Notes under the pieces: generated by a model
Databases searched by the model: none
The model's input: the letters and a program-made list of their open reading frames with translations, nothing else
Told to the model about the DNA's origin: nothing
Made by a program: the position numbers and the translations under genes
DNA from: Sinohyriopsis cumingii
Lineage: Eukaryota > Mollusca > Bivalvia > Unionida > Unionidae
Length of the DNA stretch: 64,000 nt
Assembly: GCA_028554795.2 (NCBI GenBank)
Contig: CM068839.1
Span: 10,877,220 to 10,941,219 of the forward strand
Direction: 5' to 3'
Shown: positions 15,302 to 44,886 of the stretch, in pieces
Layout of the letters: every line of letters begins with the position of its first letter
How positions within the stretch are numbered: position 1 is the first letter of the stretch

Positions 15302-15648
15302 AATAGTAAATGGGGATACCCTAGCCTCAATGGGAATTAGCATTACAGAGACCCCTGGGACACTCTAGCCTCAATGGAAATTTAACATGGAGAAAAATCG
15401 TGGGCCACTCTAGCCTCAAGGGGAATTTAACATGGGAAATAGTCTTGGGCTACTCTAGCCTCAAGGGGAATTGAACATGGAGAAAAAACCCTGGGACCAC
15501 TCTAGCCTCAAGGGGAATTGAACATGGGATTTTTTTTTTTAATTTTTTTTAAATTTAAATTTAAATTTAAATTTAAAAAAGGGGTAGGCAATTGAATAAA
15601 GTCATTCTCTTTTCGAGAAATATGGCTGGCCCTGAAAAGGGCCTTTGG
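15302..15648 (+). repeat. Left terminal inverted repeat of element B
   Basis: 347 bp matching the complement of 32876-33220 almost base for base. The outer part holds about five degenerate copies of a ~55 bp unit built on CTCTAGCCTCAAGGGGAATT and GAACATGG. Then come a poly-T/AAATTT tract, the motif AGGCAATTGAATAAAG, and at the inner end a complete histone-type 3' stem-loop with its downstream element, oriented for the leftward gene next to it. Confidence 0.92.
15628..15643 (-). terminator. Histone-mRNA-type 3' stem-loop (gene 1, inside TIR)
   Basis: On the minus strand GGCCCTTTTCAGGGCC: 6 bp stem, TTTC loop, preceded by CCAAA. It is followed by AGCCA and, 13 nt on, GAAAAGAGAATG as a purine-rich U7-type downstream element. 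It lies 25 bp after the stop of the gene at 15669. Confidence 0.8.
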
Positions 15649-15668
15649 TTTTTCTTCTTCTTCTGCTT

Positions 15669-15998
15669 CTAATTTCTTCTTTTTCTCAACCAATTTCTTA
15701 TTTTCTCTCCTACACTCTTTCTCTTCTTTTCTTTCTTTTTTTTCTCCTCCTCTTCTTTCTTCTTCTCTTCCTCCTCTTCTTTCTTCCTCTTCTCATTTTC
15801 TTCTTCTTTTTCAATTTTTTCGTTCCATTTGCGTATTCTTATCCTTTCCTCTTCATCCTCCTTCTCCTCCTTTATCTCTTTCATTACACCACTTATCTTA
15901 TCCTTTACCTTTCTTAAGTTATTAATTTCCATCTTTACACGATGGGGACTATAGGAATAGTGGTCTTCAACGAGTCTTATTAACATCTGCTCCATCAT
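15669..15998 (-). CDS. Left-arm gene 1: charged coiled-coil protein
   Basis: 109 residues from the ATG at 15998. An N-terminal helical part (MEQMLIRLVEDHYSYSPHRVKMEINNLRKV) leads into a very long Glu/Lys coiled coil and a basic tail (EKIRNWLRKRRN). An upstream ATG at 16058 fits the promoter distance better, but that frame meets TAG at 16023-16025. The copy may therefore be 5' damaged and use the internal ATG. The mirrored homologue in D (44317-44847) shares position, tail pattern and 3' stem-loop. TATA (CTATAAG) and the shared upstream module lie at 16096-16140. Function unknown; the basic tail suggests nucleic acid binding. Confidence 0.55.
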   Translation of the reverse strand: MMEQMLIRLVEDHYSYSPHRVKMEINNLRKVKDKISGVMKEIKEEKEDEEERIRIRKWNEKIEKEEENEKRKKEEEEEKKKEEEEKKKKEKKRKSVGEKIRNWLRKRRN

Positions 15999-16095
15999 TC
16001 CTAAATTGTCCAAAACGTCTTGCTATGTTTGCATTTTGTCAATTTGGTTAGAAGCCATCTTCTTTGTAGAATGGTTTGAACGACGAATACTGTGG

Positions 16096-16140
16096 GTTCT
16101 TATAGTGAAAGCGCGGACGTGATGGAAAACATCCCCCTAA
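16096..16140 (-). promoter_or_regulatory. Shared promoter module (gene 1)
   Basis: Read on the minus strand: TTAGGGGGATGTTTTCC, then ATCACGTCCGCGC, then TTTCACTATAAG as the TATA box. The same block precedes genes 2 and 3 and the D copies. A second, TATA-less half copy (CACGTCCGCAC type) lies at about 16179-16206. Confidence 0.75.
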
Positions 16141-16199
16141 AACATAAAATTGATATTACCTAGATCATGACCTAACATCGTGCGGACGTGAAAGAAAAC

Positions 16200-16587
16200 A
16201 TCCCCTACTTTTCTCATTTCATATAATATACTATCCACATAAGTGAAGCAACAACAAACAAACCCCAAATCTACTATTTACACACGCAAATCATTAAAAC
16301 AGAATCCATAATCTACTATCCACACAATCGTACGTGAGCAGTTACAAAACCCAAACTATACTCTCCACATACGCTAAGAAACAATAAACAAAATCCATAA
16401 TCTACTATCCACACAATCGTACGTGAGCGGTTACAAAACCCAAACTATACTCTTCACATACGCTAAGAAACAATAAAGAAACCCATAATCTACCATTCAC
16501 ACAAACTTACGTGAGCAGTTACAAACACAAACACATACCCTCGCACTATGAAAAAAGAGTTAGTGTTTATAATCACACTACTCTACC

Positions 16588-16618
<31 letters not shown>

Positions 16619-16620
16619 GC
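16200..16620. repeat. Tandem repeats and CA tract between left-arm genes 1 and 2
   Basis: Degenerate repeats with AATCTACTATCCACAC and CGTACGTGAGC cores. One ~89 bp unit is duplicated nearly exactly at about 16308 and 16397. They are followed by a CA microsatellite (16590-16613). The mirrored region of D (43600-44160) holds diverged copies of the same repeats. No gene seen. Confidence 0.7.
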
Positions 16621-16655
16621 AAATCGATAGTTATTTCTTTTCTAGAGTATTGGGT

Positions 16656-16671
16656 AGCCCTGAAAAGGGCT
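16656..16671 (-). terminator. Histone-mRNA-type 3' stem-loop (gene 2)
   Basis: Minus strand AGCCCTTTTCAGGGCT followed immediately by ACCCA, the canonical histone cleavage context, then CTCTAGAAAAGAAAT as downstream element. Confidence 0.82.
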
Positions 16672-16699
16672 GTTTTTTTTTAACTCCAGATGCAACTAT

Positions 16700-17011
16700 C
16701 TAATGATTGCACCTTCCTGGCCTGGCGCCACACACGCATCTTCTTCCCCAGTCTCCTTTCACCTTTCTTCTGGGGAGCGAAGAGGGAGGATGATTCGCTT
16801 CAGCACCCCAATCCTCTGTCTCGGGAATATTGAACGACATCCTCTCTTCTCTTTTCTTTTCCTCCTCTTCCCTCTGTCTTCTCTCCTCCTCTTCCTTCTT
16901 TATTCTTTCTTCTTCTATTATAGCCTCCGCAGCCAGTTCATTTACCAGGCGCCTGACATATTCCAGATGTATCTGGAGTTCAAGAAGTTTGCTTATTCTC
17001 CTACTATTCAT
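16700..17011 (-). CDS. Left-arm gene 2: coiled-coil protein with CVCG tail
   Basis: 103 residues from the ATG at 17011. Starts with a helical SRRISKLLELQIHLEYVRRL, passes through a Glu/Arg-rich coiled coil, then NIPETEDWGAEA and a cysteine-bearing end, RRCVCGARPGRC. The D copy (42974-43500) conserves the N-terminal helix, the ETEDWGAEA box and the cysteine tail but has a longer Pro/Gln middle. The conserved blocks imply selection on protein. TATA (AATTTATAG) and the shared module lie at 17061-17115, and a histone-type stem-loop ends the gene. Family not recognised. Confidence 0.65.
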   Translation of the reverse strand: MNSRRISKLLELQIHLEYVRRLVNELAAEAIIEEERIKKEEEERRQREEEEKKREERMSFNIPETEDWGAEANHPPSSLPRRKVKGDWGRRCVCGARPGRCNH

Positions 17012-17060
17012 TCTTGTGTTGATCAATCAACAAGGGTAGCTAGACTGCCGAAGGAGTTTC

Positions 17061-17115
17061 AATTTATAGTGAAAGCGCGTACGTGAAGGAAAACATCCCC
17101 CTAAAAACATAAAAT
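17061..17115 (-). promoter_or_regulatory. Shared promoter module (gene 2)
   Basis: Minus strand: TTTTAGGGGGATGTTTTCC, TTCACGTACGCGC, TTTCACTATAAATT. It matches the gene 1 module over about 60 bp, including the upstream ATTTTATGTTTT. A degenerate half copy lies at about 17153-17175. Confidence 0.75.
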
Positions 17116-17470
17116 TGATCTTACCTAGATCATGACCAAAAAAAAAACAACAACGCGCGGACCTAAAAGAAACACTCACTCACTTTTTTATTCTCCCCAT
17201 CACTATTTTAAAAATTTTTATAAATCACTTCAATTGACTATCCACATACTCAAAGCAATCCAATCTAACCCCGAAATCTACACCTCAAACACCAAATAAA
17301 GACATCATTTTAATCTACTATCCACACCAACGTACTTGATCACTTACAAACACACAAACTCACAAACACATACCCTCACATTTTTTAAAAAGAGTTAGTG
17401 TTTATTTTCACACTACTCTACCTACACACATTGGCAAATGGATAGTTATTTCTTTTCTAGAGTATTGGGT

Positions 17471-17486
17471 AGCCCTGAAAAGGGCT
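17471..17486 (-). terminator. Histone-mRNA-type 3' stem-loop (gene 3)
   Basis: Minus strand AGCCCTTTTCAGGGCT then ACCCA and CTCTAGAAAAGAAAT, as for gene 2. The surrounding ~60 bp nearly match 16620-16680, so the 3' end cassette has been duplicated as a unit. Confidence 0.82.
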
Positions 17487-17512: not shown

Positions 17513-17875
17513 TTAGTTTCTAAGAATGCGATGTCCTCTGAGGATAGACTTTCTGGCGATAGGTCTGCTTCTTCGGAAAGAGAAGAAGAACTCTTTGGTG
17601 TCGATACGACAATCGGCAAAGCCTCTGTCAGCTTCAGGTTCTTGTTGCTGCTGTTGTTGTTGTTGCTGCTGTTGCTGCTGTCTCTGAAGTCTGTACTTCT
17701 CTGTCCATTCTTCTTTTTCCCTGTTCATTTCTTCTCTGAAAAGCTCTTCTATCAGGTCTTCAGTGATTTTTAACATTCTCACATTCTCTATTTCTTCTGG
17801 CTTCGGTATCAGACTGTGTCTGACCCTATGCAAATTCACGTAGGCTTCGTTGAGCTTAGCTAGTTTGGAACACAT
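17513..17875 (-). CDS. Left-arm gene 3: helical protein with poly-Gln tract
   Basis: 120 residues from the ATG at 17875. A conserved helical head (KLAKLNEAYVNLHRV...PKPEEIENVRMLKITEDLIEELFREE) is followed by a coiled coil and a CAG/CAA-encoded run of about 15 Gln. The tail is DRGFADCRIDTKEF with an RRSRP region. The D copy (42239-42577) keeps all of these but only a short interrupted Gln stretch, so the Gln run is an expanded microsatellite. The head is the best conserved part between copies. Promoter module at 17929-17968. Function unknown. Confidence 0.7.
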   Translation of the reverse strand: MCSKLAKLNEAYVNLHRVRHSLIPKPEEIENVRMLKITEDLIEELFREEMNREKEEWTEKYRLQRQQQQQQQQQQQQQEPEADRGFADCRIDTKEFFFSFRRSRPIARKSILRGHRILRN

Positions 17876-17928: not shown

Positions 17929-17968
17929 CTTAAAGTTAAAGCGCGGACGTGAAGGAAAACATTTCCCA
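17929..17968 (-). promoter_or_regulatory. Shared promoter module (gene 3)
   Basis: Minus strand GGGAAATGTTTTCC, TTCACGTCCGCGC, TTTAACTTTAAG. The module is intact, but the TATA position reads TTTAAG. Confidence 0.65.
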
Positions 17969-18212: not shown

Positions 18213-18764
18213 CTACTTTAAACAGGGCTGACAACGTTGTGAATGAAATTGTGATTTCCACTGTTGGAAATCATTAGGCCATTGATGGACACTACGTTTC
18301 CTAGCTTGAGACAAAAGATAAGCATAATGGTCACAAAACCATCGATCTACTTTCACATCATTTCCTGAAGAAGAACGAGGATCAAAATGAGTCACTAAAT
18401 GTTCTAAGGAATAGCCCAGGCTTCGATGATGCAGAAAATACACGCAATATTGTCCACACACCAAGGAATATGTGCCTTGTAATTTCACATTATTGAATCG
18501 GGTGGTCTGAGCATTTCTTCTCATAAAGTCGATGATATCGTCTTCCAAAGGGGGCAATCCGTACGAATCGAAATATTCCACACATCCTTCTTGAGGAAAG
18601 TAGACGGCTACCCAGTGGGTTCCTGGGAGATGACTGTCGTCCGTGTTGATGACGTAAGCTTGATGGTCTTGAGGTTTGCGATGAGGGAGTTCATCTTTAG
18701 CACAGACGACAGGATTCCAAGAAGCCGTATACGAACTGTGGTAATAAAGTTCCCAGGTATCCAT
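18213..18764 (-). CDS. Adenain-like (C48) cysteine protease of element B
   Basis: 183 residues. Active-site order H50 (GTHWVAV), D66 (EYFDSYG), Q96, C103 (LVCGQYC) is as in adenovirus protease. It should cleave capsid precursors during maturation. Intact frame, last gene of the leftward structural set. A ~90% identical but broken copy lies at 38948-39466 in element D. The C-terminal extension after DRWFCDHYAYLLS is basic (RKRSVHQWPNDFQQWKSQF). Confidence 0.93.
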   Translation of the reverse strand: MDTWELYYHSSYTASWNPVVCAKDELPHRKPQDHQAYVINTDDSHLPGTHWVAVYFPQEGCVEYFDSYGLPPLEDDIIDFMRRNAQTTRFNNVKLQGTYSLVCGQYCVYFLHHRSLGYSLEHLVTHFDPRSSSGNDVKVDRWFCDHYAYLLSQARKRSVHQWPNDFQQWKSQFHSQRCQPCLK

Positions 18765-18797
18765 TGATTTGTGTGTGTTTTTTTTTCTTTTTCTTCT

Positions 18798-19283
18798 TCA
18801 CAGGTAATAATAAGTCGTCAATTCGATCCTGACTTTTTGCTTGAAAATGTCTGACGAATAAACGGTTATTCGTTCTGTTTCCTCACTCTGATTCAGGAGA
18901 GCTTCGATACGATGGATCTCTTGAGTGGTTAATGGTGGACAAGAATGTTTACGCAAGTCTTTATACCACTGATGCAACACGTCTTTGTTCGAGATGAGAC
19001 TCCAAGCTTCGTCCAGATACTCGTCCAATTTTTCTTCTTGACTCAACATCAGGCATTTATCGTGTTGAATTTGACTGGGATGATCGTTTTGACATCCATA
19101 GCAATTTTTCTTGATCAATTCCGTCATTTTGTCGACCAAGTGTTTGGCAAAACAGGAGACTAAATGGGCTTCTTGTTCTGGCCATCTTGACTTCATCATG
19201 ATCACTTCTTCTTTTTCCACGGTCTCCTCACATTTCATGTCCAAAGTTTCTCCACTAGGTAAAGAGGGATAACAGTCTTCCAT
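18798..19283 (-). CDS. Conserved Polinton-associated Cys/His protein
   Basis: 161 residues with an acidic start and helical body. The centre carries KKNCYGCQNDHPSQIQHDKC, a plausible zinc site (Cys, Cys, His, His, Cys), and further helices follow. Proteins with this CxxC-x-HPSQ-x-H-x-C pattern are familiar to me as unnamed neighbours of protease or capsid genes in animal Polinton-like sequences. No enzymatic motif is visible. It lies 5 bp from the capsid gene and 33 bp from the protease. Confidence 0.6.
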   Translation of the reverse strand: MEDCYPSLPSGETLDMKCEETVEKEEVIMMKSRWPEQEAHLVSCFAKHLVDKMTELIKKNCYGCQNDHPSQIQHDKCLMLSQEEKLDEYLDEAWSLISNKDVLHQWYKDLRKHSCPPLTTQEIHRIEALLNQSEETERITVYSSDIFKQKVRIELTTYYYL

Positions 19284-19288
19284 GGTTT

Positions 19289-20602
19289 CTAGTAATCTAG
19301 GATGACTTCTCTGAAACCGTTGATTTCTATTGTATTATCGAATTCTGCATACAGGATGACGTTCACCGTTTCATCAGGGTCTCGGTCTTTAAACTGAATT
19401 TCCACACGAATCTGGCCGGATTTTATAGGGTGGAAATGTCCCTCGTCGCTGCCTTGGTCTGGAGTGAAATCGAAAGCCCACAAAGCATAGCCTCCTGCAT
19501 AATCTTCGTACGTAATGCCGTGACTGGTGTTGGTTCCTAACTGTCCGGTGGCTTCGTACAGGGATAAGTACGATCTCAAGTAATTCTCCTTGGTAAAGTC
19601 AGGTTCGAAAGGTCGGGTACACAAGGTCTTGCCATCGCGACTGACTTCGATTTTGGACACGCCAAAGTGTTGAAAGTAGAAAGGATTTTTTTCGGCAGCT
19701 CCGTTGAAGGTTGTATTCTCGACGATACCAACGATCAAACGTTTGGGTAACTGTCCTTGGAACAGATGATCTTCGATCATGGATCGCTGTCCCTTGGGAA
19801 TGGTGAAGGTTTTCACTTCCACGCGTCGTATGGGATACTTGGCAGTCGTTCTGCTCAACGTCTGACTGATGTCGTTTCCCACTTTAGGTAACACTTCCAC
19901 ACGGCGTACGTAGAGTCTGGCTTCTTGGATTTTGGTTTTGTAACCGTCACTATCAGCCATCAAATGGAAAGCGGCACTGCTACGATTCAGTCTCAGGCGG
20001 ACATCCACCCCGTTCAGCAAATACTTTTCTTGCAACCACATGTCCAAATGCAAACGATCCATCAGTTCTAAATTTGTGTCGACTCCCGTGATTCTCTTTC
20101 TTCGTTCTACAAATCCATCATTGTTGTCTTTCTTTTCATCAGTTTCCAATATTTCAAACTTGGTAGGTTCGTCAGCTTCCCATACCACACAGGCATTGAG
20201 ATGAGTGTTCTTGGCATCTATTCCGTACGTCAAGAGATTTTCCAGGTAGGCACGATAAGGGTAAGTATCCATGCTGCTACTGACCAGTTTGTTATTCAAG
20301 TACAAGTCCACTCCACTGAACAAGGAATGCATGAAATTGTTGACGGGAGCTACTGCTTCATCGTCTATAGGACTTCCAGTCTTATCTAGAATTTTGACTT
20401 TCAGGTACAAGTAACTGCTATTCAGATCGATGTAATCTTCGGGCTGTCCTTTGATTTCAAACTCGATGGGAGCGGAATCGGTCAGTGAGGAGACGGGGTG
20501 AAATTCCACCCATTGGGATTCTTGCATCGTCATCATCGTGGGGGGCATGGCAAACAGGTCCAGTTCCGTCTTGGAACAAGCGCAAGATTCTCGGTGCATC
20601 AT
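19289..20602 (-). CDS. Major capsid protein (double jelly-roll) of element B
   Basis: 437 residues, two adjacent ATG codons. After a short leader comes FEIKGQPEDYIDLNSSYLYL then NFMHSLFSGVDLYLNNKLV, the characteristic opening of Polinton/adintovirus capsid proteins. A DTYPYRAYLENLLTYG segment and a second beta domain follow (RLIVGIVENTTFNG, YEDYAGGYALWAFDFTPD, RVEIQFKDRDPDETVNVILY). It forms pseudo-hexameric capsomers. Intact frame. Followed by the HPSQ protein and preceded by the pVI-like gene. Confidence 0.92.
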   Translation of the reverse strand: MMHRESCACSKTELDLFAMPPTMMTMQESQWVEFHPVSSLTDSAPIEFEIKGQPEDYIDLNSSYLYLKVKILDKTGSPIDDEAVAPVNNFMHSLFSGVDLYLNNKLVSSSMDTYPYRAYLENLLTYGIDAKNTHLNACVVWEADEPTKFEILETDEKKDNNDGFVERRKRITGVDTNLELMDRLHLDMWLQEKYLLNGVDVRLRLNRSSAAFHLMADSDGYKTKIQEARLYVRRVEVLPKVGNDISQTLSRTTAKYPIRRVEVKTFTIPKGQRSMIEDHLFQGQLPKRLIVGIVENTTFNGAAEKNPFYFQHFGVSKIEVSRDGKTLCTRPFEPDFTKENYLRSYLSLYEATGQLGTNTSHGITYEDYAGGYALWAFDFTPDQGSDEGHFHPIKSGQIRVEIQFKDRDPDETVNVILYAEFDNTIEINGFREVILDY

Positions 20603-20618
20603 TTTTTTGTCTCTTTTC

Positions 20619-21035
20619 TCAATAATCGAAAACGTCTAAGTCTCGAACGGTTCTTCTTTTCTTGGCCTTTCTCGCTTGAAGTCTGGTGAAAGGGTGTTTT
20701 CTTCGTCGTCTCTTTCTGCCTTGTCCTTGCTGAATGCCTGACTCGGTAGCGTGCAGGGCATTTATAGGTGTCTCTCGTTGGCCTAAAATGTCTTTGCCCG
20801 TTTGCAGCAAGATATTTTTGCCTGCCCTCATGAAGGCTTCTTTAGGGTTTTGTTTGTCGATGATGACATTTTGGAGAAATTCTTTGCCTTGCGTCAGTGC
20901 CGCATCTTTCAAGGCGTGCAATCCGCGTGTCACCATCGGTTTCAACACCGGGGCCACCGAACGAAAGGCCGATTTTAACATGTCTCCTAAGCCGTGTCCT
21001 CGCTGTCGAGCAACCCCTCGGTACACTGGATACAT
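20619..21035 (-). CDS. pVI/core-like basic minor capsid protein
   Basis: 138 residues. N-terminal VYRGVARQRGHGLGDMLKSAF leads into an amphipathic helix. The C-terminal third is strongly basic (QGRKRRRRKHPFTRLQARKAKKRRTV), fitting DNA binding in the core. Its place between penton and capsid genes matches the adenovirus pVI-like slot and its counterpart in element A (13178-13636). The label rests on position, size and amphipathic helix, not on clear homology. Confidence 0.6.
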   Translation of the reverse strand: MYPVYRGVARQRGHGLGDMLKSAFRSVAPVLKPMVTRGLHALKDAALTQGKEFLQNVIIDKQNPKEAFMRAGKNILLQTGKDILGQRETPINALHATESGIQQGQGRKRRRRKHPFTRLQARKAKKRRTVRDLDVFDY

Positions 21036-21042
21036 GACTTAC

Positions 21043-21972
21043 TTACGAGTCGTGAGAGAACCGTTTTCGAAAATGGAGTTTCACCTTGACTTTTCCTTTG
21101 GTGAATGGAATATTTTGTCCCAAATCTCCTTTTATAGCAATGTTGACCGTGTCCAAATACGACTTGCTGACCGGCAAATAGTGAGGATGGACAAATTCGC
21201 GGTGGACGTTGTAATTGTTTCCACCTTCCTCGTCAGCGCCCGTGGCAGAATCTACTTTGAAAGGAATGACACGCAGTAACGGTACGGAGGTGTGTCCCAC
21301 CACGTTGTACTCCACCACATCGGAATACACGAACATCAAATTCAGTCCTTGGTTCAGTTCTACCGGGGTACGAAATAACTTGCTAAAAGACTCGTTGTCG
21401 TAAACGATGGGTAATTCGTTTTTCTTGAGCATGGCCTTTCTCATGTCCATGTCTCCGCCCAACATGTCAAACAATTCAGGACAAAATAAAATGGACACGA
21501 TTTTACTTCGTTCAAATTTCATCAAGAAGCGACGAGCTGCTTTGTGGTACTCCATGGTGACACTTTTGTTGACATGCTCCAAAGCTTTCAGAAACACGAC
21601 ATTAAACCTGGAGGCTATGGTGCTGACCAAATGTTGACCACTAAAATAATAGCCTGGGGGAATGAACAAGTGATAGGTGGTGGACTTTTGATTTTGTGTA
21701 CGGGTTTTCTTGTCATACTTGACATTGCTATCCATCCACTGTTGCATTTGCTCGTCATGAACTTCCACATCAAAAAAATTTTGATTGGGAAGGACATTGA
21801 GGACTTGGGTCGGGTGAATCATTTCTACTAAAGCCACTTCCCAATGGGCTTCGTGATCTAACTGGATGGCCTGAGGTAATTTGGCCGTGTAACAGCACAA
21901 CGTGTTCTTGGGAAACACCTCCATGGAACTGTCACTGGGTAAAGTTAAGTAAAATTGGTTTTGGTGACTCAT
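21043..21972 (-). CDS. Penton / minor capsid protein of element B
   Basis: 309 residues. Starts FYLTLPSDSSMEVFPKNTL then CYTAKLPQAIQLDHEAHWEVAL, the usual opening of the Polinton minor capsid (single jelly-roll, vertex) protein. IPPGYYFSGQHLVSTIASRF and ELFDMLGG follow, and the closing strands are LDTVNIAIKGDLGQ and KVKVKLHFRKR. Its ATG overlaps the stop of the membrane-protein gene as ATGA, suggesting shared transcripts with reinitiation or closely packed promoters. Intact. Confidence 0.85.
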   Translation of the reverse strand: MSHQNQFYLTLPSDSSMEVFPKNTLCCYTAKLPQAIQLDHEAHWEVALVEMIHPTQVLNVLPNQNFFDVEVHDEQMQQWMDSNVKYDKKTRTQNQKSTTYHLFIPPGYYFSGQHLVSTIASRFNVVFLKALEHVNKSVTMEYHKAARRFLMKFERSKIVSILFCPELFDMLGGDMDMRKAMLKKNELPIVYDNESFSKLFRTPVELNQGLNLMFVYSDVVEYNVVGHTSVPLLRVIPFKVDSATGADEEGGNNYNVHREFVHPHYLPVSKSYLDTVNIAIKGDLGQNIPFTKGKVKVKLHFRKRFSHDS

Positions 21973-22385
21973 AATTCCAGAGTTATGTGGCTGTCCGAGG
22001 GGTTACTGGACGTCAGAGGCGTGTCTCCGTCTAAAATGGGGTTCTGGTTGTGGTTGAAGTGGTGACTGGCACTGGCACTGGACACAAGGTTCCCGGGGTT
22101 CCCGTTCGAGGTGAATTTCAGGGAGGGATTAGGAAGCAGGTAACCGATGCAACTGCTCAATAAAATGCTCCACAATTGTTTGTCTCCTTGTTGCAAACTC
22201 AAATTGGCGATGGCTGCCCCGATGACACAATACACCACGAAGATTTGGCAGAAAAAGACGATTTGCGTTTTAGGCACACGTTCTCCACACCACACCCACA
22301 AGGGTTGTTTTTGTAAATCTTGCACAGAAGAACTAGGTGAAGGAGGAGTGGTCGACGTAGCTCCGTCTGCTGTGTGAAAGGGCAT
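21969..22385 (-). CDS. Small conserved membrane protein
   Basis: 138 residues from the ATG at 22385. After a Ser/Pro-rich start, TQIVFFCQIFVVYCVIGAAIANLSL forms a clear membrane span. KQLWSILLSSCIGYLLPNPSL is a second hydrophobic segment with a motif I associate with Polinton/adintovirus membrane proteins. The C terminus is polar, Ser/Asn-rich. It overlaps the penton gene by ATGA and starts 5 bp after the integrase stop. A role in the virion membrane or entry is possible, not shown. Confidence 0.7.
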   Translation of the reverse strand: MPFHTADGATSTTPPSPSSSVQDLQKQPLWVWCGERVPKTQIVFFCQIFVVYCVIGAAIANLSLQQGDKQLWSILLSSCIGYLLPNPSLKFTSNGNPGNLVSSASASHHFNHNQNPILDGDTPLTSSNPSDSHITLEL

Positions 22386-22390
22386 GATGG

Positions 22391-23500
22391 TCACTTCTTT
22401 TTATAGTCGATGACTTGCGAAGCGTCGAACAAAGAATCAAAACTGGGTGGATATCCTTTCCAACGTACTTTGACTTCTTTGACACGTCGTTTGCCCACTT
22501 TACGGGTTCTGCGTTCGAGAATGCTTTCGATGTCGTACACGTCGTCTTCTTTTTTGGTGACAGGTTGTAACTCGGGCAAATAAAACGTTCCTTTGAGCAC
22601 TTCTCCGTTCATGTCTTCCAATTTATAGACGGCAGGATGACGGCCATGCACTCGTCCAGTGACGCGAAACAATTCGGTCGTCCAGTTAGGTAAGTAACCT
22701 TTGTCGAAAGTGCGTTTGGTTTTGCCAATGCGCACCCAATCTCCTACGGCCAACACTCCACTTTTCTTGGGGACAGCTCTCGTCGGGGACGTACCAAACA
22801 GACGCTCAAACACCAACACTTCGTTGTCGGGAGTCACGTCTTGCGGGGCACGTCCGATGCTTCGATGGTAAGATTGGTTGTACGCTTGCACCAGGTGCGG
22901 TAAGATGTCGATGTACTTCAGAGTGTGGTGATGCGTAAAATATTTCCACATGCGCTCTTTCAAAGTGCGTTGAAAACGTTCCACGATGCTGGCTTTGGTT
23001 TCGGGATTCTCGGTGGTAAAAAAATGAATGTCACGTTTCTTTAATTCTTTTTGGAAAGCTTGGTTCAGAAATTCGGTGGCTTTGTCCGTTTGCCATCGAA
23101 GAGGGTGACGACCGCTTTGTTTCAACACCCGTTGCAGGGCTCGCACTAACTCGCTGCTCGATTTGGAAGTCAAGGGCACGACCCAGGCAAATTTGGAAAA
23201 GACGTCGATGACACAAAACAAATATTTGTAGCCACGATTGTAGCTGGCCAAATGAGAGACATCGGCTAAATCGGCTTGCCATTGATGATCGATGCCTTCC
23301 ACTCGGGTGCGACTTCTGGCAAGCTTGCGTCGAATGGGTTTGTGTAAAGTGTAGGTAGCTTGTTCTTGTAACCATCTTTGCACTTGAGGTAAACGGAGAC
23401 TTTTCAGTCGAGTTTTGGCAGCACGATACAATTTTTGAACTCCTGCGTAACCTGCAGGATGGGAGGGATCGTAGTAAATGCTGGCTAAGACTTTTTCCAT
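22391..23500 (-). CDS. Chromodomain rve integrase of element B
   Basis: 369 residues from the ATG at 23500. N-terminal helical zinc-binding-like region, then a DDE core with D77 (WQADLAD), D139 (QTDKATEF) and E174 (SIVERFQR). The C-terminal chromodomain reads YDIESILERRTRKVGKRRVKEVKVRWKGY (only part quoted), ending SLFDASQVI. The chromodomain would read histone methyl-lysine and steer integration. Matches the 6 bp target duplication seen at the ends. Intact. Confidence 0.95.
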   Translation of the reverse strand: MEKVLASIYYDPSHPAGYAGVQKLYRAAKTRLKSLRLPQVQRWLQEQATYTLHKPIRRKLARSRTRVEGIDHQWQADLADVSHLASYNRGYKYLFCVIDVFSKFAWVVPLTSKSSSELVRALQRVLKQSGRHPLRWQTDKATEFLNQAFQKELKKRDIHFFTTENPETKASIVERFQRTLKERMWKYFTHHHTLKYIDILPHLVQAYNQSYHRSIGRAPQDVTPDNEVLVFERLFGTSPTRAVPKKSGVLAVGDWVRIGKTKRTFDKGYLPNWTTELFRVTGRVHGRHPAVYKLEDMNGEVLKGTFYLPELQPVTKKEDDVYDIESILERRTRKVGKRRVKEVKVRWKGYPPSFDSLFDASQVIDYKKK

Positions 23501-23523
23501 TTTTTTTTGTGTTGGTTGGTGTG

Positions 23524-24165
23524 TTAATAAGACACCCACTCTTGGAGGATGCTACTCTTTTTCTCTTGGGGTACTTTCTTGGATTGCAATGCTTTGCGTG
23601 TGCGGCCGGCAATAGGTGTTGATGAGGAGGATGTCTGAGCGGGGGATATCGGTTCTTGTTTCACTTCTGTCTTCACTTCTGTCTTCACTTTCTTTTTCTC
23701 TTGTGATGAAGAAGGGGTGGCCATTATCTTTTTAATCCATCCAATTCTGGAGGTAGGTGGTGTTGTTAACTTGCGTACTTTTTCTGGTGGAGTTTGAAAC
23801 CCTTCTTCTTCTTCTCCTTTTTCTGTCTTGGTCACTGGTACTGGTGGTACTGGTACTGGTACTGGTACTGGTGATGGTGCTGGACTTTTCATCAAGGTCT
23901 TAAAATCTTTTAGAGTGGGTAGAGCTGTTTCGTCTAAAGCTTTCTGGTGAAAGAGTTGCAGTCGTTGCAAGAGTTGACCGTACTTTTGCGATTTTTCTGT
24001 TTCGGACAAATCTTGGCGATCCATCAAGGACTGCAATTCGTGTTGTAACTGGGACATTTCGCTCAAATTGGGATTGGGAGGTAAATGCGGGGTGCGTTGT
24101 TCTTGCCACCGATGGTATTCCATCCATCGTTTGTAAGGCACTAAAGCTAGTTTTCGTCCTTCCAT
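23524..24165 (-). CDS. Unknown Pro-rich protein with KLALVP start
   Basis: 213 residues. Starts MEGRKLALVPYKRWMEYHRW, a motif I have seen at the start of unnamed Polinton proteins. A helical region (SQLQHELQSLMDRQDLSETEKSQKYGQLLQRL) follows, then a Pro-Val dipeptide repeat, an acidic patch, and a Lys-rich tail ending LQEWVSY. A KTEVKTEVKQEP repeat is a possible SUMO-type site. No enzyme motif. Intact; function unknown. Confidence 0.55.
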   Translation of the reverse strand: MEGRKLALVPYKRWMEYHRWQEQRTPHLPPNPNLSEMSQLQHELQSLMDRQDLSETEKSQKYGQLLQRLQLFHQKALDETALPTLKDFKTLMKSPAPSPVPVPVPVPPVPVTKTEKGEEEEGFQTPPEKVRKLTTPPTSRIGWIKKIMATPSSSQEKKKVKTEVKTEVKQEPISPAQTSSSSTPIAGRTRKALQSKKVPQEKKSSILQEWVSY

Positions 24166-24214
24166 GGGGTTGTCAGGGGTCGATTCTGAGATCTTGGGAC
24201 TTCCGAAGGCCTTT

Positions 24215-24601
24215 TTATCTTGCTCCCACTAGTCCTCCCAACATGGTTCCCAAGACTCCTTTCAGTATGGGGCCTAACAAGAGAGGCACGATGCCTCCAC
24301 GTTGGACCAACATCTTCTTTTTTTGACGAATGGGAATTTTCTTTTGAACCATTTGGCGAAGAACGTGACAATGTTTGCCTAAGCATTGTTTCTGGTGTTT
24401 GGACAAAGGGATCGTGCCTTTCAAAACGTTCAAACAACATTCGCACACGGTATCGATGACCTCTTTGGAGGCCGTTTGAATGAGTTTTTTTCGTATGGGT
24501 GGAGAAGCTTTGGACAGGACAGATAACATGTCCCCATGTTTGGCTAAACGTGGTGGCAGTCCTTTCCTTTTCTTTCCTTGGGGTTTTCTGGAGGGTGACA
24601 T
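24215..24601 (-). CDS. Core protein X-like membrane-active protein
   Basis: 128 residues from the ATG at 24601; a TATA box (CAGTATAAAA on the minus strand, about 24659-24668) lies 60 bp upstream. A helical repeat-like region (LSKASPPIRKKLIQTASKEVIDTVCECCLNVLKG) precedes LRQMVQKKIPIRQKKKMLV and ends in QRGGIVPLLLGPILKGVLG with a Gly-rich hydrophobic tail. This C-terminal motif is widespread in adintovirus-like elements and has been likened to adenovirus protein X. It would be a virion core or membrane-disrupting peptide source (inference). Confidence 0.65.
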   Translation of the reverse strand: MSPSRKPQGKKRKGLPPRLAKHGDMLSVLSKASPPIRKKLIQTASKEVIDTVCECCLNVLKGTIPLSKHQKQCLGKHCHVLRQMVQKKIPIRQKKKMLVQRGGIVPLLLGPILKGVLGTMLGGLVGAR

Positions 24602-24660
24602 CTTTGAATCTTCAGGAGCACCAAAAAAAACATGATACCCTACTCGGTCACAGGCCTTTT

Positions 24661-25598
24661 TTATACTGGAACGCGTCGCCACTGATTGTCTTGACGTCGT
24701 ATCAGTTTGAGGACAGGCATGACACGTCGTGCAGGGGTACGTAACGGACTAAATCGAGCCAGTTCTTGCTTGGACAAATCCAGTAAACTTTGTAACATAC
24801 CCGATCTTTCATGGACTTTGATTTTGGGAGAAGGTACTTTGTGAGCAGCAGCCACTGCCACTAAATTGGAGGGTCCTGCCACTGGGGAAGTTCTTTTGGG
24901 GGTCATCAACGGAGAAGTTCTTGGTGTGATCAACGTCTCCAAGTACTCTTCAGTTCCTGGTGTCATTAACGGAGAAGTGGACAAACGTGAGGATGCCGGA
25001 GACGCAGTCACTGCCGTGGCAGATCGTGGTTTGCGAGTGTAAGGTTGCGTCCTGGCCGAAGTGCCAATCTTGCGACTAGTTTTCTTCTGTGGACTTTTCT
25101 TTTTCTGGGGACTTTTTTCTGTTTCTTTTTCTGGGGGTTTCTTTTCTTTTTCCGGGGTGGTGGTGGTGTCTGGTAAGAGGAGGGTCCTGCCACTGGAGAA
25201 GTTCTCCTTGGGGACCTGGTCTTTTTCTTCTTGGGGCTTCGTTGGACTTTTGTCTTGGGTATAACTTTGGGGGCATTAGGATCCCATCTTAAGAGTGAGC
25301 GAATGATGACCCGTCCTAGAGTACCGCTCCCTCCAGGTTTCAAAATGATTTGTTTTTTGGTTTGAGTGTCGGCCAGTTGGACCAAAGCGACTTTGTTTCG
25401 ATCGAAAAAGCGTTTGGTTTGATGAGGAATCTGAATGATTCCTTGGAGTAATTGACGTGCCGTCACCGTGAACCATCGTAAGACTTCTTTGAGACTAGCT
25501 TCTAAGACACGAGCTCGTGTTTGTGGATTTTTTTCTCGACTGATGCCATGCAAGGCACGAATCAATTTGACGGGAAGATGCGACTGAAGGGACGTCAT
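24661..25598 (-). pseudogene. Basic Pro-rich protein, probably one gene with a frameshift
   Basis: The ATG at 25598 opens LQSHLPVKLIRALHGISREKN, then NKVALVQLADTQTKK and ILKPGGSGTLGRVIIRSLLRW, followed by a Lys/Pro-rich tail ending at 25008. A second frame overlaps, has no ATG of its own near 25011, stays open back through the basic region to about 25.2 kb, and runs on to 24661. Both halves contain RTSPVAGPS. I infer one ~310-residue gene whose frame changed near the GGT repeats at about 25155-25170. TATAAAAA lies at about 25638-25647 on the minus strand. The basic content suggests a core DNA-binding protein. The alternative is two overlapping genes. Confidence 0.5.
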
Positions 25599-25639
25599 GT
25601 TCACACTGTGTGAGACAGACTAAAAAGGGTTTGAGGTTT

Positions 25640-26395
25640 TTATAGATTTTTTGATGGGGAGTGAAATGAAGTCGAGGACGGAGACGTGTACAGGGCAGGC
25701 CCTCCGTCTTGGCACCAGTGGTGAAACAAGTGGGTACGAAATCGCAAATCCTCGGGGGTCGTAGGTTTCAAATCGACGAGTAAATAGGCGTGTGGCGTTT
25801 GAGTGGCATCGTCGTACGCCTGAGTCAGCCAAGGCGTTCCTAACTGTTTGGCTAAGACTTGCACTTGCGATTTATCTCGAGGGCTTTTAAACAAGACCAC
25901 GTAATGAGCATTGAGACTGATGGTGCGATGGGTTTTACTTTGTTGAAACAAATTTTGGGTGATGTAAACGACACTGGCATTACGGTGATGCCCTTTGCGC
26001 GTGAACCACAGTTTAATTTCTTCTTCGTCTTCTCCTAACATGTCGTCGAAAATGACCAAATGGGTTTGACGGGAGTCAGAGACGAAGCCGTCGTCTTCTT
26101 TAGGAATGCCTTCCACAAGCACGATGGAATCGCCTTGACTTTCTCGCAAGAGGCTGTACGCCGATTGCCACTCTTTTTAACACCACACGATCCGTTGAGG
26201 TGGCCGATCGATCAAATGATGTTTATGTTCGATCAAACGTTTGACGAATTCGGTTTTGCCTGAACCGCTAGGTCCAGCAATGAGCATGTTAAAGGGATGG
26301 CGAAGATACAAAGCCTCCCAACTGGCACGATCTAAGTGTTCGTCGATGACTTTGACAGTAGAGGAAGAGGGAGCAGAGACAGCAGAGGTAGCCAT
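25640..26395 (-). pseudogene. A32-like genome packaging ATPase with internal stop codon
   Basis: From the ATG at 26395: Walker A in LIAGPSGSGKTEF, then RIVWC and a TAA at 26177-26179. The same frame goes on for 170 more codons with Walker B (HLVIFDDML), the sensor-like VVYITQNLF and the C-terminal region. The two parts are in the same frame, so a single nonsense change divides an otherwise complete ~250-residue FtsK/HerA-type ATPase. The enzyme drives DNA into capsids. The product is expected to be truncated soon after Walker A. TATA (GTATATAAAC) lies about 50 bp upstream. An intact but distant relative is at 57392-58057. Confidence 0.85.
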
Positions 26396-26483
26396 TGTGT
26401 GAGAAATGTCACTTGTGACACGAAAAACAAACAAGACAAGAGTTTATATACTTTTTCAGAACACGTTTATTGAATGTTTTTTT

Positions 26484-26830
26484 TTAAACATGAATACGAA
26501 AGACAAAAATACATAAAAGCCAAAGGCTTAAGTACAAGGATAAAAGGCACATGATAACCATGAACGTGGAATAAAAACAAGTGTCTGTACAACATGTTTT
26601 GGGTAATGTTCTAACCAGTTCTGTAGTAGGGGGTAAGGTCACACAAGTGTCCTCCCGAAAGGGTCTTTCAGGCCTGTCCACGACAGTCCCGTCCTGGGTG
26701 ACGGGTTCTTCTGGCACCGTCACTAACACGGGTTGAAAAGTAACTTTTTTCCTTGAATAACTCTCGTGCATACTGGGCCACCTCTTGGGTCCAAGCCAAA
26801 CCAATCTGGTTTCTTCTTCGTCAACGACAT
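26484..26830 (-). CDS. Small protein with C-terminal membrane anchor, start uncertain
   Basis: The long frame ends in CFYSTFMVIMCLLSLYLSLW and more hydrophobic residues, a clear membrane anchor, after a Pro-rich acidic domain with several Thr-Val repeats. It has no suitable ATG near its beginning. The first ATG after the TATA box (TATATAAAAAGG, about 26880-26891) lies at 26830 in another frame, and that frame stops at 26723-26725. The run of six T at about 26745-26750 is a likely frameshift site. So this may be a broken gene. AATAAA on the minus strand follows at about 26464. Function unknown. Confidence 0.5.
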
Positions 26831-26856
26831 GGTAAGTTACTTCAATGAACAATGAA

Positions 26857-31815: not shown

Positions 31816-31842
31816 TTTTTTCTTTATGGTGTAGGAGTGAGT

Positions 31843-32856: not shown

Positions 32857-32875
32857 TGGATACATTAACATAAAC

Positions 32876-33220
32876 CCAAAGGCCCTTTTCAGGGCCAGCC
32901 ATATTTCTCGAAAAGAGAATGACTTTATTCAATTGCCTACCCCTTTTTTAAATTTAAATTTAAATTTAAATTTAAAAAAAAATAAAAAAAAAATCCCATG
33001 TTCAATTCCCCTTGAGGCTAGAGTGGCCCAGGGTTTTTTCTCCATGTTCAATTCCCCTTGAGATTAGAGTAGCCCAAGACTATTTCCCATGTTAAATTCC
33101 CCTTGAGGCTAGAGTGGCCCACGATTTTTCTCCATGTTAAATTTCCATTGAGGCTAGAGTGTCCCAGTGGTCTCTGTAATGCTAATTCCCATTGAGGCTA
33201 GGGTATCCCCATTTACTGCT
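32876..33220 (-). repeat. Right terminal inverted repeat of element B
   Basis: 345 bp, complement of 15302-15648 with a few substitutions and length changes in the poly-T/A tract. Ends CCCCATTTACTGCT before the target duplication. The outermost three bases differ between the two ends (AAT versus AGC on the inward strand). Confidence 0.92.
32881..32896 (+). terminator. Histone-mRNA-type 3' stem-loop (right arm, inside TIR)
   Basis: GGCCCTTTTCAGGGCC preceded by ACCCAAA and followed by AGCCA and TTTCTCGAAAAGAGAATG. It is the inverted copy of 15628-15643. Confidence 0.82.
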
Positions 33221-33226
33221 CACCTG
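33221..33226. repeat. Right target-site duplication CACCTG
   Basis: Matches 15296-15301 exactly. Confidence 0.85.
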
Positions 33227-41706: not shown

Positions 41707-41722
41707 AGCCCTTTTTAGGGCT
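41707..41722 (+). terminator. Histone-type 3' stem-loop variant (gene 4)
   Basis: AGCCCTTTTTAGGGCT: same 6 bp stem, loop TTTT instead of TTTC. It is followed by CCTAAATTGCC, with no clear purine-rich downstream element. Confidence 0.5.
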
Positions 41723-42615: not shown

Positions 42616-42631
42616 AGCCCTTTTCAGGGCT
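42616..42631 (+). terminator. Histone-mRNA-type 3' stem-loop (D gene 3)
   Basis: AGCCCTTTTCAGGGCT followed by ACCCA and CTCTATACAAGAAAT, a slightly altered downstream element. Confidence 0.8.
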
Positions 42632-42884
42632 ACCCAATACTCTATACAAGAAATACACATTCAATTGCCAATGGTACGTTAGTTAGTTAGAAAAAAAATA
42701 GAAGTGCGTCTATAAGCACATTATTTCTTTATCTTGGTTAGAAAGTGTGACTCTAAGCCCTTCGTTTCCGTCGCTTATCAAAAATTTTAAAATATTGATT
42801 GTCAATACAAAAAAGTGAGTGAGTGTTTCTTTTAGGTCCGCGCGTTTTTGGTGATAATATGGATAATGTAAGTTTTGGTATTAG

Positions 42885-42925
42885 GGGATGTTTTCCTTCA
42901 CGTCCGTGCTTAAAGTATTTATAGG
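42885..42925 (+). promoter_or_regulatory. Shared promoter module (D gene 2)
   Basis: TTAGGGGATGTTTTCC, TTCACGTCCGTGC, then TAAAGTATTTATAGG as TATA box, 45-50 bp before the ATG at 42974. A degenerate half copy (TAGGTCCGCGCG) lies at about 42834-42846. Confidence 0.75.
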
Positions 42926-42973
42926 AAACACTCGTCAGTCTGGCTACCCATTGTCAACAAGACATCAGTGAAA

Positions 42974-43500
42974 ATGAGTAGCAGAATCACAAAACTGTTG
43001 GAACTCCAGATGCACCTGGAATACGCCAGGCGCCTCCTGGACGAGCTGGCTATGGAGGCTGTAGCAGAGAAAGCCAGGATAGAGGAAGAGGAGGAGAAGA
43101 GGAAAAAGAAAGAAGAGGAGGAAAACAAAAGATCTATCCTGCCTCACGTAATTATGAGGCCTATGTGTGAGGCGAAGCCATTGCTACCTCCAGAGCCAAT
43201 ACCAGTGCCACAACCACAACGTCAACAACAACAACCACAACCAGTACAAAGACTAGTGGTTAACCAGAGAGAAAACTGGGAGGAGCTAGAGAGAGAACGG
43301 GAACAAACTCAAGGACAACATCCTAGACTACGGGATAGAAGAAGAAGACAGAGGGAAATCTTCCGAATCCCAGAAACTGAAGATTGGGGTGCTGAGGCTG
43401 ACCATGATCCTCTGCACTCCCATCTGCTACAGTTAACTGGGATAATGACTTGAGCAGGAGATGTGTTTGCGGTGCTAGACCTGGGAGATGCCATCACTAA
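42974..43500 (+). pseudogene. Arm gene 2 copy in element D, late frameshift
   Basis: From the ATG at 42974: SSRITKLLELQMHLEYARRL matches the B gene 2 head. A coiled coil and a longer Pro/Gln-rich middle follow, then RIPETEDWGAEA. The frame then stops at 43451-43453, while the conserved end RRCVCGARPGRC is found in another frame up to TAA 43498-43500. A small indel after the WGAEA box has therefore removed the cysteine tail. The rest is open (159 codons). Confidence 0.7.
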
Positions 43501-43528
43501 CAGGTGCATGTGGAGTTAAAAAAACCCA

Positions 43529-43542
43529 GCCCTTTTCAGGGC
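43529..43542 (+). terminator. Histone-mRNA-type 3' stem-loop (D gene 2)
   Basis: GCCCTTTTCAGGGC (outer A-T pair lost to A-A), preceded by AACCCA, followed by AAACCAAAGCTCTAGAAAAGAAAC; the purine-rich downstream element is intact. Confidence 0.78.
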
Positions 43543-43599
43543 AAACCAAAGCTCTAGAAAAGAAACACTATTCAATTTGCCAATTGTATGAGTGTGGAG

Positions 43600-44160
43600 T
43601 ATTGTGATTATAAACACTCACTCCTTTCCTGGTGTAATTGTGTGTGTGTTTGTATGAGCTCAAGTTCGTTTGTGTGGATAGTAGATTATTGGGTTTTGTA
43701 AGCGTTCACGTACGTTTGTGTAGATAGTAGAGTGTGTGGATTTTTAACCTTCCCTTCTGTGTGGATGGTATGTTTGGGTTTTGTTTTTGCTTCTTCGTGT
43801 GTGGGGATAGTATAATTTGGTTTGATTTGTTGGCTTCTTCGCGTGCGTGGATAGTATATTTTGGTTATGTTTCTGCTTCTCGGCGTGTGTGGATAGTATA
43901 TTTGGGTTTGATTTTGCTTCTTAACGTGTGTGGATAGGATATTTTGGGTTTGTTATGCTTCTCGGCGTGTGTGGATAGTATATTTTGGTTATGTTTCTGG
44001 TTCTTGGCGTGTGTGGATAGTAGATTATGGTTATCTTTGTTTGCTTCTTCGCGTGTGTGGATAGTAGATTTTGGGGTTTTATGCTTCTCGGCGTGTGTGG
44101 ATAGTATATTTTGGTTAATTATTTGTCTCCTCACCTCTGTGTGGATAGTAGATAACATGA
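43600..44160 (+). repeat. Degenerate tandem repeats between D genes 2 and 1
   Basis: About ten copies of a ~50-60 bp unit with GTGTGTGGATAGTATATTTTGG and GCTTCTCGGC cores (first core shown in part). This is the diverged, mirrored counterpart of 16200-16550 in B. Confidence 0.75.
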
Positions 44161-44172
44161 GAAGAGAAAAAA

Positions 44173-44214
44173 TAGGGGATGTTTTCCTTCACGTCCGTGC
44201 TTGACAAATATAAA
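44173..44214 (+). promoter_or_regulatory. Shared promoter module (D gene 1)
   Basis: ATAGGGGATGTTTTCC, TTCACGTCCGTGC, TTGACAAATATAAAC; TATA box about 30 bp before an initiator-like TCATTCGC. Confidence 0.75.
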
Positions 44215-44316
44215 CTCAAGTGTCTGTCATTCGCGCCATTCTACGGAATAACCAAAAAGAAGATGGTGGCAGTGACGGAGTTGTTTAATAATTTGGTAAA
44301 TATATATTATTGATTA

Positions 44317-44847
44317 ATGGATGCTACCTATGTAGTGAAAAGGTTAGAACAAGAATGGAAGTTACCAGAGTGCATGGACTATGCTAATAGCCTAAACGTA
44401 GCCAAAGACCTGGTAGAAGGGATGTTAGAAGAGGAGGAAGAGAGGTTGAGAGGTTTGATTAATCCCCCCTATGGCATAGTGAGAAGCTTAAAGCAATCAC
44501 TTGACAATGTAAGCAAAGTCAGGTGCCTTCTGGAAGATATGTTGTATGGGACAGAGTGGTCTTATGTGAAGAGGGGTCTGGACAGGCTGAAGAAAGGAGA
44601 TGAATTAATGAGGAAAGTGATGGAGGTATAGGTGAAGAAGATAAAAGAAAAATGGTCAAAAGAAAGAAAGGAAGAAGAGAATATAAAGAAGAAATTGAAC
44701 TTTGAGCAACTAAATCAGAACTTGATGAAGGTATAAGACAAGTTTAGAGCGACTGGTCATCCAGACTGGATGCCGGACACGGAAAAGAAGAAGAAGAAAG
44801 GAATCATTGAAAAAGTCAGGCAATGGCCTAAGAAGTGGAGGAAATAG
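44317..44847 (+). pseudogene. Arm gene 1 copy in element D, two stop codons
   Basis: The ATG at 44317 opens DATYVVKRLEQEWKLPECMD and a helical, charged protein. The frame meets TAG at 44629-44631 and TAA at 44734-44736 but otherwise runs to TAG 44845-44847, ending EKVRQWPKKWRK, like the EKIRNWLRKRRN tail of B gene 1. A histone-type stem-loop follows 23 bp later. The N-terminal half shows little similarity to B gene 1, so either they diverged fast or the heads were exchanged. Confidence 0.6.
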
Positions 44848-44870
44848 AAGAAGAAGAAGAAGAACCCAAA

Positions 44871-44886
44871 GGCCCTTTTCAGGGCC
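44871..44886 (+). terminator. Histone-mRNA-type 3' stem-loop (D gene 1)
   Basis: GGCCCTTTTCAGGGCC preceded by ACCCAAA and followed by CCTCATAGGCCTCGAAAAGAAACG. Confidence 0.82.

Follow-up and report, generated by a model that had tools for sequence, protein, structure and literature searches.

Why do small genes of a virus-like mobile element end in the kind of stem-loop that closes the messenger RNAs of histones? The question is raised by a stretch of 64,000 nucleotides (nt) from the unionid bivalve Sinohyriopsis cumingii (assembly GCA_028554795.2, contig CM068839.1, positions 10,877,220 to 10,941,219 of the forward strand; the window from here on), which holds an element, B, and a relative, D. 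By standard teaching, a 3′ end of the histone type marks a histone gene, and a preliminary description of the window proposed that nine such ends lie behind small viral genes of the two elements. From the analysis reported here, we hold it likely that B and D are Polinton (adintovirus-like) elements with about five mock-histone small genes.

Stem-loops behind the small genes

All nine stem-loops are present where the preliminary description had put them, except that one begins at 43528 rather than 43529, and its statement that each reads in the direction of the gene before it holds in 9/9 cases. A pattern search for RGCCCTTTTCAGGGCY with at most two mismatches returned these nine places in the window, against a mean of 0.04 and a maximum of 1 in shuffled sequence; seven are exact, the stem-loop at 41707 has a T in the loop and that at 43528 has its last base changed. 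The stems vary by matched pair, the outer pair being A-T or G-C. Exactly 13 nt past the stem-loop, GAAAAG follows in seven of the nine, in line with the earlier claim of a GAAAAGA-type purine element in most copies; the downstream element is decayed at 42616, and at 41707 there is none. A covariance search of the window with the Rfam histone stem-loop model (RF00032) found seven of the nine, all at E<=7.2e-4. Of these seven, one, at 31776-31820, lies above the gathering score of 34 (41.2 bits) and two lie just below it (33.9); the stem-loops at 43528 and 41707 are absent from the matches at E<=10.

The nine are not all mutually independent, as the stem-loops at 15628 and 32881, one in each arm of the element B terminal inverted repeat, duplicate each other. 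Those at 42616, 43528 and 44871 come after the element D homologues of open reading frames (ORFs) 3, 2 and 1, respectively. Eight of the nine are strongly supported; that at 41707 is weak and doubtful, and was downgraded, being without a downstream element, from equal membership of the set. When the nine are taken together with 20 further loci fetched from the assembly, the stem-loop starts 22-39 nt past the stop codon in 25 of the 29 (two of these distances depending on frames of only 17 and 25 amino acids), and 7, 75, 100 and 144 nt past it in the remaining four.

Comparison with the histone genes of the host

A search for H4 in the same assembly gave 114 matches, mostly about 8.3 kb apart on shared contigs, and one unit of this array consists of H4, H2B, H2A, H1 and H3, all five with an RF00032 match behind them that exceeds the curated score. 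The stem-loop of host H2B (GGCCCTTTTCAGGGCC) is letter-identical, over all 16 nt, to those of viral ORF1, ORF4, ORF5 and D ORF1; that of host H1 is GGTCCTTTTCAGGACC, in which the stem change is matched. Past the host stem-loop the element reads TAGAAAAGA in four genes and CCGAAAAGG in H2A, with GAAAAG at 13 nt in H4, H2B and H3 and at 14 nt in H2A and H1, and the seven window copies that have GAAAAG carry TAGAAAAGA or TCGAAAAGA. A covariance model (R1) for which the 3′ ends of the five host histone genes were the sole input recovered eight of the viral stem-loops at E values of 7.6e-11 to 1.4e-5 (38.8-62.5 bits), followed by that at 41707 (E=0.03) and a next match at E=1.3. The core of the preliminary description, that viral genes here bear histone-mRNA-type 3′ ends, is strongly supported by this comparison with host histone genes. 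There is a bivalve precedent for such ends on histone genes themselves, since extracts of one study describe histone mRNAs of Lucina pectinata that end in a stem-loop (PMC6210712).

Could the hairpins instead be DNA structures or generic terminators, serving, for example, replication from the terminal repeats? Two of the nine do lie inside terminal inverted repeats, and IMG/VR contigs often contain the bare 14-mer (at least 120 stretches). Seven, however, lie outside the repeats, all keep strict gene orientation, and the downstream element and its spacing match those of the host. When R1 was run on 20 other contigs (four with a related capsid and 16 from IMG/VR with the bare 14-mer, these being part of those fetched), the best match had E=1.3, and the 16 IMG/VR contigs reached at most 18.3 bits against the 38.8-62.5 bits of the eight viral stem-loops. 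We regard this explanation as extremely improbable. Bacterial-type terminators were also considered and rejected: a stricter pattern of stem-loop plus AAAGA matched five IMG/VR contigs, of which, by eye, none has GAAAAG at 13 nt and none resembles an animal gene end.

Histone promoter motifs

To the 3′ ends we add an observation that the preliminary description did not have, namely that ORF1, ORF2 and ORF3 carry a host histone promoter motif. This motif, P1 (GATGTTTTCC(A/T)TCACGTCCGCGCT), is found at all three viral genes with at most one mismatch, and 86-88 nt upstream of the ATG in ORF2 and ORF3; the host H2B promoter carries the ORF1 form in 24/24 nt, and at host H1 a single position differs. 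A second motif of 19 nt, P2 (TTTCTTTTAGGTCCGCGCG), reads the same at host H4 as at viral ORF2 and D ORF2, and the two motifs have the common core GTCCGCGC. At up to four mismatches P1 occurs at seven places in the window, six of them upstream of stem-loop genes and on the correct strand, and at none in the structural block of element B; P2 occurs, at up to three mismatches, at three places in the window, and neither motif had a match in 10 Markov shuffles each. In the host array a minus-strand P1 match with four mismatches lies between H2B and H2A, and neither motif is seen at H2A and H3.

Two other sites in the window may be noted here. A weaker copy of P1 (three mismatches) at 39683-39706 on the plus strand has no gene assigned to it and lies about 2 kb before the doubtful stem-loop at 41707. 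The divergent promoter region of ORF4 and ORF5 (32403-32623) has no histone motif and contains TGACGTCA, GGATTGG and TATA-type boxes.

Identity of the element and of its small proteins

By its polymerase, integrase and terminal repeats, element B is classed as a Polinton; capsid, protease and ATPase are assigned on weaker evidence. Pfam matches were obtained for DNA_pol_B_2 (4.6e-15 and 3.9e-20) and rve (2.6e-13); the Peptidase_C5 match, to an adenovirus-type protease, is below the cut-off (E=0.009), and the putative packaging ATPase is read from a Walker A motif alone (ORF 26177-26395). What we take to be a Polinton-type capsid has no Pfam match and 973 homologues; among the 120 listed are F54H12.2-like bivalve proteins, 'hypothetical' proteins and one from a bacterial metagenome-assembled genome, the organisms named being Mercenaria, Crassostrea, Ostrea and Saccostrea besides that genome. 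Related capsids were also found in genome_contigs, on four contigs of bacterial assemblies (L141, L142, L143 and L144); these contigs are probably contamination from invertebrate hosts, and two of the assemblies bear symbiont labels, one naming a tubeworm and one a mussel. A viral_contigs search with the capsid, the polymerase and ORF3 returned no related DNA.

The small proteins have no Pfam match above the cut-off, and among the nine small frames there is no histone match even at E<=0.1 (ORF4 being scanned only before its in-frame stop). As no recognisable histone is encoded, the viral small genes stand outside the histone gene family. AlphaFold models ORF3 as two helices (pLDDT 73, pTM 0.36), from which no function was derived. 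Relatives of ORF3 in other data sets are 66-78% identical to it, and a relative of ORF5 (P0132, 79% identity) reads through residues that, compared by eye with the window sequence, resemble a translated stem-loop region (KPFSGP...LLEN); the likeness is no more than suggestive, and such a stem would have an imperfect outer pair.

Copies in the genome and constraint on the genes

The signals are repeated on a very large scale. The stem-loop core occurs at 56,759 places in the 2.9-Gb assembly against 3 in a reversed control, and the P1 core at 36,426 against 0; together with the shuffle counts, these controls rule out a chance origin of stem-loops and promoter motifs. At about five stem-loops per element, the first count would correspond to roughly 11,000 element equivalents. 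The layout of these copies was tested over the first 3.08 Mb of contig C1, with the first 100 listed stem-loops and, in the overlap, 58 of the first 100 listed P1 sites. A same-strand stem-loop lies within 1.3 kb of P1 in 47 of the 58 cases and an opposite-strand one in none, against a mean of 1.1 and a maximum of 6 in a rotated-position control; the distance from P1 to the stem-loop is 408-504 nt in 31 of the 47 and 642-771 nt in 10. Divergent pairs with a spacing of 1.07-1.10 kb, as at ORF4/ORF5, account for 36 of the 100 stem-loops (18 pairs), and P1 lies upstream of 45 of the remaining 64.

That P1 is far commoner in the genome than histone genes are would fit a flow in the reverse direction, in which the motif passed from the element to the promoters of host H1, H2B and H4 and no promoter mimicry is implied. 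We find this distinctly improbable: two distinct motifs with a common core stand at different histone genes, and the stem-loop and downstream element are ancestral in animal histone genes, so that the 3′ ends, at least, passed from host to element or converged.

An initial genome search for ORF3 gave 27,486 candidate places, and all of the 150 that were scored matched. Thirty ORF3-anchored loci, the window copy included, were selected by protein and not by stem-loop; the exact 16-nt stem-loop is present in 28 of them (its stem is damaged in the other two), and in 29 of them P1, with at most one mismatch, lies 87-90 nt upstream of the ATG. Because these 30 loci are close copies, this is a measure of persistence and not of depth. 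Pairwise ratios of nonsynonymous to synonymous change (dN/dS), obtained by simple counting from 11 comparisons of ORF2-5 (ORF1 excluded) in which some synonymous distances are near saturation, are 0.23 for ORF3 (one comparison), 0.10-0.21 for ORF2 (four), 0.13-0.15 for ORF5 (three) and 0.26-0.34 for ORF4 (three); ORF2-5 are under constraint. In eight pairs of copies, picked via an exact stem-loop match or from the window, stem-loop and element are identical in 35-40 of 40 nt; the coding sequences of the same pairs are 67-95% identical, the 200 nt that follow 68-89% and the 170 nt upstream 68-94%.

These comparisons bear on whether the ends of host histone genes might have been picked up once and then have spread with the copies without being in use. 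That 24 nt are the same in the promoters of host H2B and viral ORF1 would agree with such passive capture, as would the number of copies and the 98-100% protein identity of the 150 scored ORF3 places. It would have to account, however, for 3′ signals on five different gene families at near-fixed spacing, for stems that differ by matched outer pairs, for signals kept between ORF2 copies whose synonymous change is near saturation, and for the constraint on the stem-loop genes themselves; we judge it very improbable.

Proposed mechanism and competing 3′ ends

With this gene architecture, its identity with host signals, its repetition across the genome and the constraint on its proteins, a Polinton-type element probably runs its small genes as mock replication-dependent histone genes. 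The frames are short and uninterrupted in complete copies, and are mostly followed at the short distance given above by the stem-loop and then by the purine element. In S phase, host histone-type transcription factors would start the viral small genes; host SLBP would bind the viral stem-loop, the host U7 small nuclear ribonucleoprotein would pair with (C)TAGAAAAGA (the 5′ end of U7 being expected, under this pairing model, to contain TCTTTTCTAG or TCTTTTCGAG), and CPSF73 would cut a few nt past the stem. The result would be an mRNA with no poly(A) tail, which would remain stable and be translated during host DNA replication. We infer the tail-less ends, the S-phase linkage and the need for SLBP and U7, as well as the pairing and cleavage steps, from the established processing of histone mRNAs.

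An alternative is that the transcripts have dual or mainly poly(A) ends, the stem-loop being used in part and most transcripts being polyadenylated at an AWTAAA signal 50-84 nt further on. AWTAAA is found at that distance in 4/8 window copies examined, and 105-113 nt past the stop codon in 28/30 ORF3 loci, and both counts speak for this alternative and against mock histone genes as we describe them. Some human replication-dependent histone genes polyadenylate in non-dividing cells; human H2AC18 can use either its stem-loop end or a poly(A) end (extracts of PMC9756948). In that gene, as here, stem-loop and purine element stand alongside a poly(A) signal, and a difference is that the signal here, itself putative, lies 50-84 nt past the stem-loop and apart from the element (PMC9756948, same extracts). 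Host H4, however, likewise has AATAAA, 21 and 76 nt past its own stem-loop, and ORF2 and three listed element D copies have no AWTAAA within 250 nt. Because host H4 has such a signal, the presence of AWTAAA leaves stem-loop processing open; for the same reason, and because H2AC18 uses either end, dual ends are a serious rival, which we nevertheless think unlikely. The claim that structural genes of the element use AATAAA instead of stem-loops did not survive as a clean rule, as AWTAAA occurs within 400 nt past the stop codon in 5/17 non-stem-loop genes listed for element B and in several stem-loop genes too.

Several further observations weigh against the proposal that the small genes act as mock histone genes. 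ORF4, ORF5, D ORF3 and a diverged ORF1 copy in L129 are without P1, and a TATA box stands 47-60 nt before the chosen start codon in only 13 of the 29 stem-loop loci. In the C1 layout test, 11 of the 58 P1 sites have no stem-loop downstream and 19 of the 100 stem-loops fall in neither layout. The apparent constraint on the stem-loop is partly built in, since the copies compared were chosen through an exact stem-loop or from the window, and gene conversion could mimic constraint, some upstream stretches being up to 94% alike. A stem-loop was found on 0/4 related-capsid contigs, which are partial and may stop short of the gene-end region; within that limit, the trait is not general for the group. 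For U7, RF00066 gave 0 matches among the 65 scored of 801,960 candidates, and a pattern search gave 36 matches against 53 in a reversed control; 20 of the 36 were inspected and none was convincing, the best RF00066 score being 21 bits against the 34 needed. Domain searches of the assembly for SLBP returned no match, though an intron-split gene could escape them.

Features of the window

The features of elements B and D are collected in Table 1. The inverted repeat arms of B are 97% identical between 15300-15495 and 33027-33222, and 98% between 15531-15652 and 32872-32993; the terminal repeats at 15300-15530 and 33000-33222 are arrays of a 45-nt unit (TCCCATGTTCAATTCCCCTTGAGGCTAGAGTGGCCC...). 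The ORF1 frame begins further in than in copies L121 and L136, and the ORF4 copies L126, L132 and L139, unlike the interrupted window copy, stop 22-28 nt ahead of the stem-loop.

Table 1. Coordinates of the elements, genes, 3′ ends and promoter motifs in the window
Feature	Position	Strand	Evidence
B: left terminal inverted repeat, bears ORF1 stem-loop reading outward	15300..15652	.	inverted-repeat comparison
B: ORF1 3′ end, stem-loop 15628-15643 + GAAAAG 13 nt on	15608..15643	-	RF00032 33.9 bits; R1 E=5.8e-7
B: ORF1, small charged gene, stop to stem-loop 26 nt	15669..15998	-	ORF list
B: P1 of ORF1, 24 nt identical to host H2B promoter	16110..16133	-	motif comparison
B: second, weaker P1 copy before ORF1, 3 mismatches	16179..16202	-	motif search
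B: ORF2 3′ end, stem-loop 16656-16671 + TAGAAAAGA	16636..16671	-	RF00032 31 bits; R1 E=2.7e-9
B: ORF2, small charged gene	16700..17011	-	dN/dS 0.10-0.21, 4 comparisons
B: P1 of ORF2	17074..17097	-	motif search
B: P2 of ORF2, 19 nt identical to host H4 promoter	17154..17172	-	motif search
B: ORF3 3′ end, stem-loop 17471-17486 + TAGAAAAGA	17451..17486	-	RF00032 31 bits; R1 E=5.5e-10
B: ORF3, small gene	17513..17875	-	dN/dS 0.23, element B vs D
B: P1 of ORF3	17940..17963	-	motif search
B: structural/replication block (protease-like, capsid, rve integrase with chromodomain-like end, DNA polymerase B)	18213..30795	-	ORF list, Pfam
B: ORF4 3′ end, stem-loop 31800-31815 + CGAAAAGA	31780..31815	-	RF00032 41.2 bits; R1 E=7.6e-11
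B: ORF4, in-frame stop interrupts window copy	32140..32403	-	ORF list, copy comparison
B: ORF5, small basic gene	32623..32856	+	dN/dS 0.13-0.15, 3 comparisons
B: right terminal inverted repeat, bears ORF5 stem-loop reading outward	32872..33222	.	inverted-repeat comparison
B: ORF5 3′ end, stem-loop 32881-32896 + CGAAAAGA	32881..32916	+	RF00032 33.9 bits; R1 E=8.9e-7
Stem-loop, loop TTTT, without downstream element, weakest of nine	41707..41722	+	R1 E=0.03; no RF00032 match
D: homologue of ORF3, without P1	42152..42577	+	ORF list, copy comparison
D: ORF3 3′ end, stem-loop + decayed downstream element	42616..42651	+	RF00032 28.2 bits; R1 E=1.4e-5
D: P2 of ORF2	42826..42844	+	motif search
D: P1 of ORF2	42887..42910	+	motif search
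D: homologue of ORF2	42974..43453	+	ORF list, dN/dS
D: ORF2 3′ end, stem-loop with outer pair broken + TAGAAAAGA	43528..43563	+	R1 E=5.5e-6; no RF00032 match
D: P1 of ORF1	44178..44201	+	motif search
D: broken ORF1 3′ end, stem-loop + CGAAAAGA	44871..44906	+	RF00032 30.2 bits; R1 E=3.8e-6

No histone stem-loop was found within 400 nt after the listed genes of the structural block of B, in which the window copy of the DNA polymerase B is read in two overlapping frames (27612-30795). Between the polymerase and ORF4 lies a plus-strand gene with two zinc knuckles (31059-31550), which lacks a histone stem-loop within 400 nt; an ATTAAA lies 32 nt past its stop codon.

The window also contains two copies, A and E, of a different type of element (1489-4935 and 59555-63061), which encodes a protein of 1148-1168 amino acids. 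The protein of A has a Pfam helicase region (AAA_19, AAA_30) and, on inspection by eye, is polymerase-like ahead of that region and HNH-like at its C terminus; the large gene of this type is adjoined by an integrase-like frame, and no histone stem-loop was found there. A tandem repeat at 37943-38294 has one frame coding GPSGPVTQGGLN-like units.

Relation to known systems and meaning

The viral small genes resemble metazoan replication-dependent histone genes in the 6-bp stem and 4-nt loop, the short gap from stop codon to stem-loop, the purine element with its host-like spacing and the uninterrupted frames, and ORF1-3 do so also in their host histone promoter motif; they differ in being viral, in having no Pfam histone match, in lying in a transposing element and, for some, in having a possible poly(A) signal. 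With Polinton/Maverick elements and the Adintoviridae, element B has in common DNA polymerase B, an rve integrase with a chromodomain-like end, terminal inverted repeats, a weak adenovirus-type protease match and a putative capsid related to bivalve proteins; it differs in the histone-type 3′ ends, and in part histone promoters, on a set of small genes, of which the literature searched gave no mention for these groups. Histone3 (RF00032) motifs were reportedly named in the SARS-CoV-2 genome by one study (PMC7786107), SARS-CoV-2 being an RNA virus, unlike the Polinton element here. Among the open-licence papers listed we found none joining Polintons with histone stem-loops, SLBP or U7, and a look-up by terms in PMC11071296 and PMC11071308 found no histone-type 3′ ends or promoters. 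Extracts of the former do describe adomaviruses that carry viral 'Histoid' genes, one case being from a clam data set (PMC11071296); these too are viruses with borrowed histone features, and the difference, as far as those extracts go, is that there the protein is histone-like, and here the gene-expression signals are (PMC11071296).

The signals described here suggest that gene expression of the element is tied to host DNA replication. Whether a Polinton lineage has taken over the host histone expression programme, in its 3′ ends and at ORF1-3 also in its promoter, for non-histone genes, so that these are switched on with DNA replication, is a proposition on which we are evenly divided. If it is true, 56,759 stem-loop cores would stand beside an estimated 550 or so stem-loops of host histone genes (about 110 array units of five genes each), and the elements could compete with the host for SLBP, U7 and histone-locus factors. 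It would also represent a new route by which a DNA virus or transposon can tie its expression to S phase, and the tens of thousands of natural copies would allow the histone promoter code of bivalves to be read.

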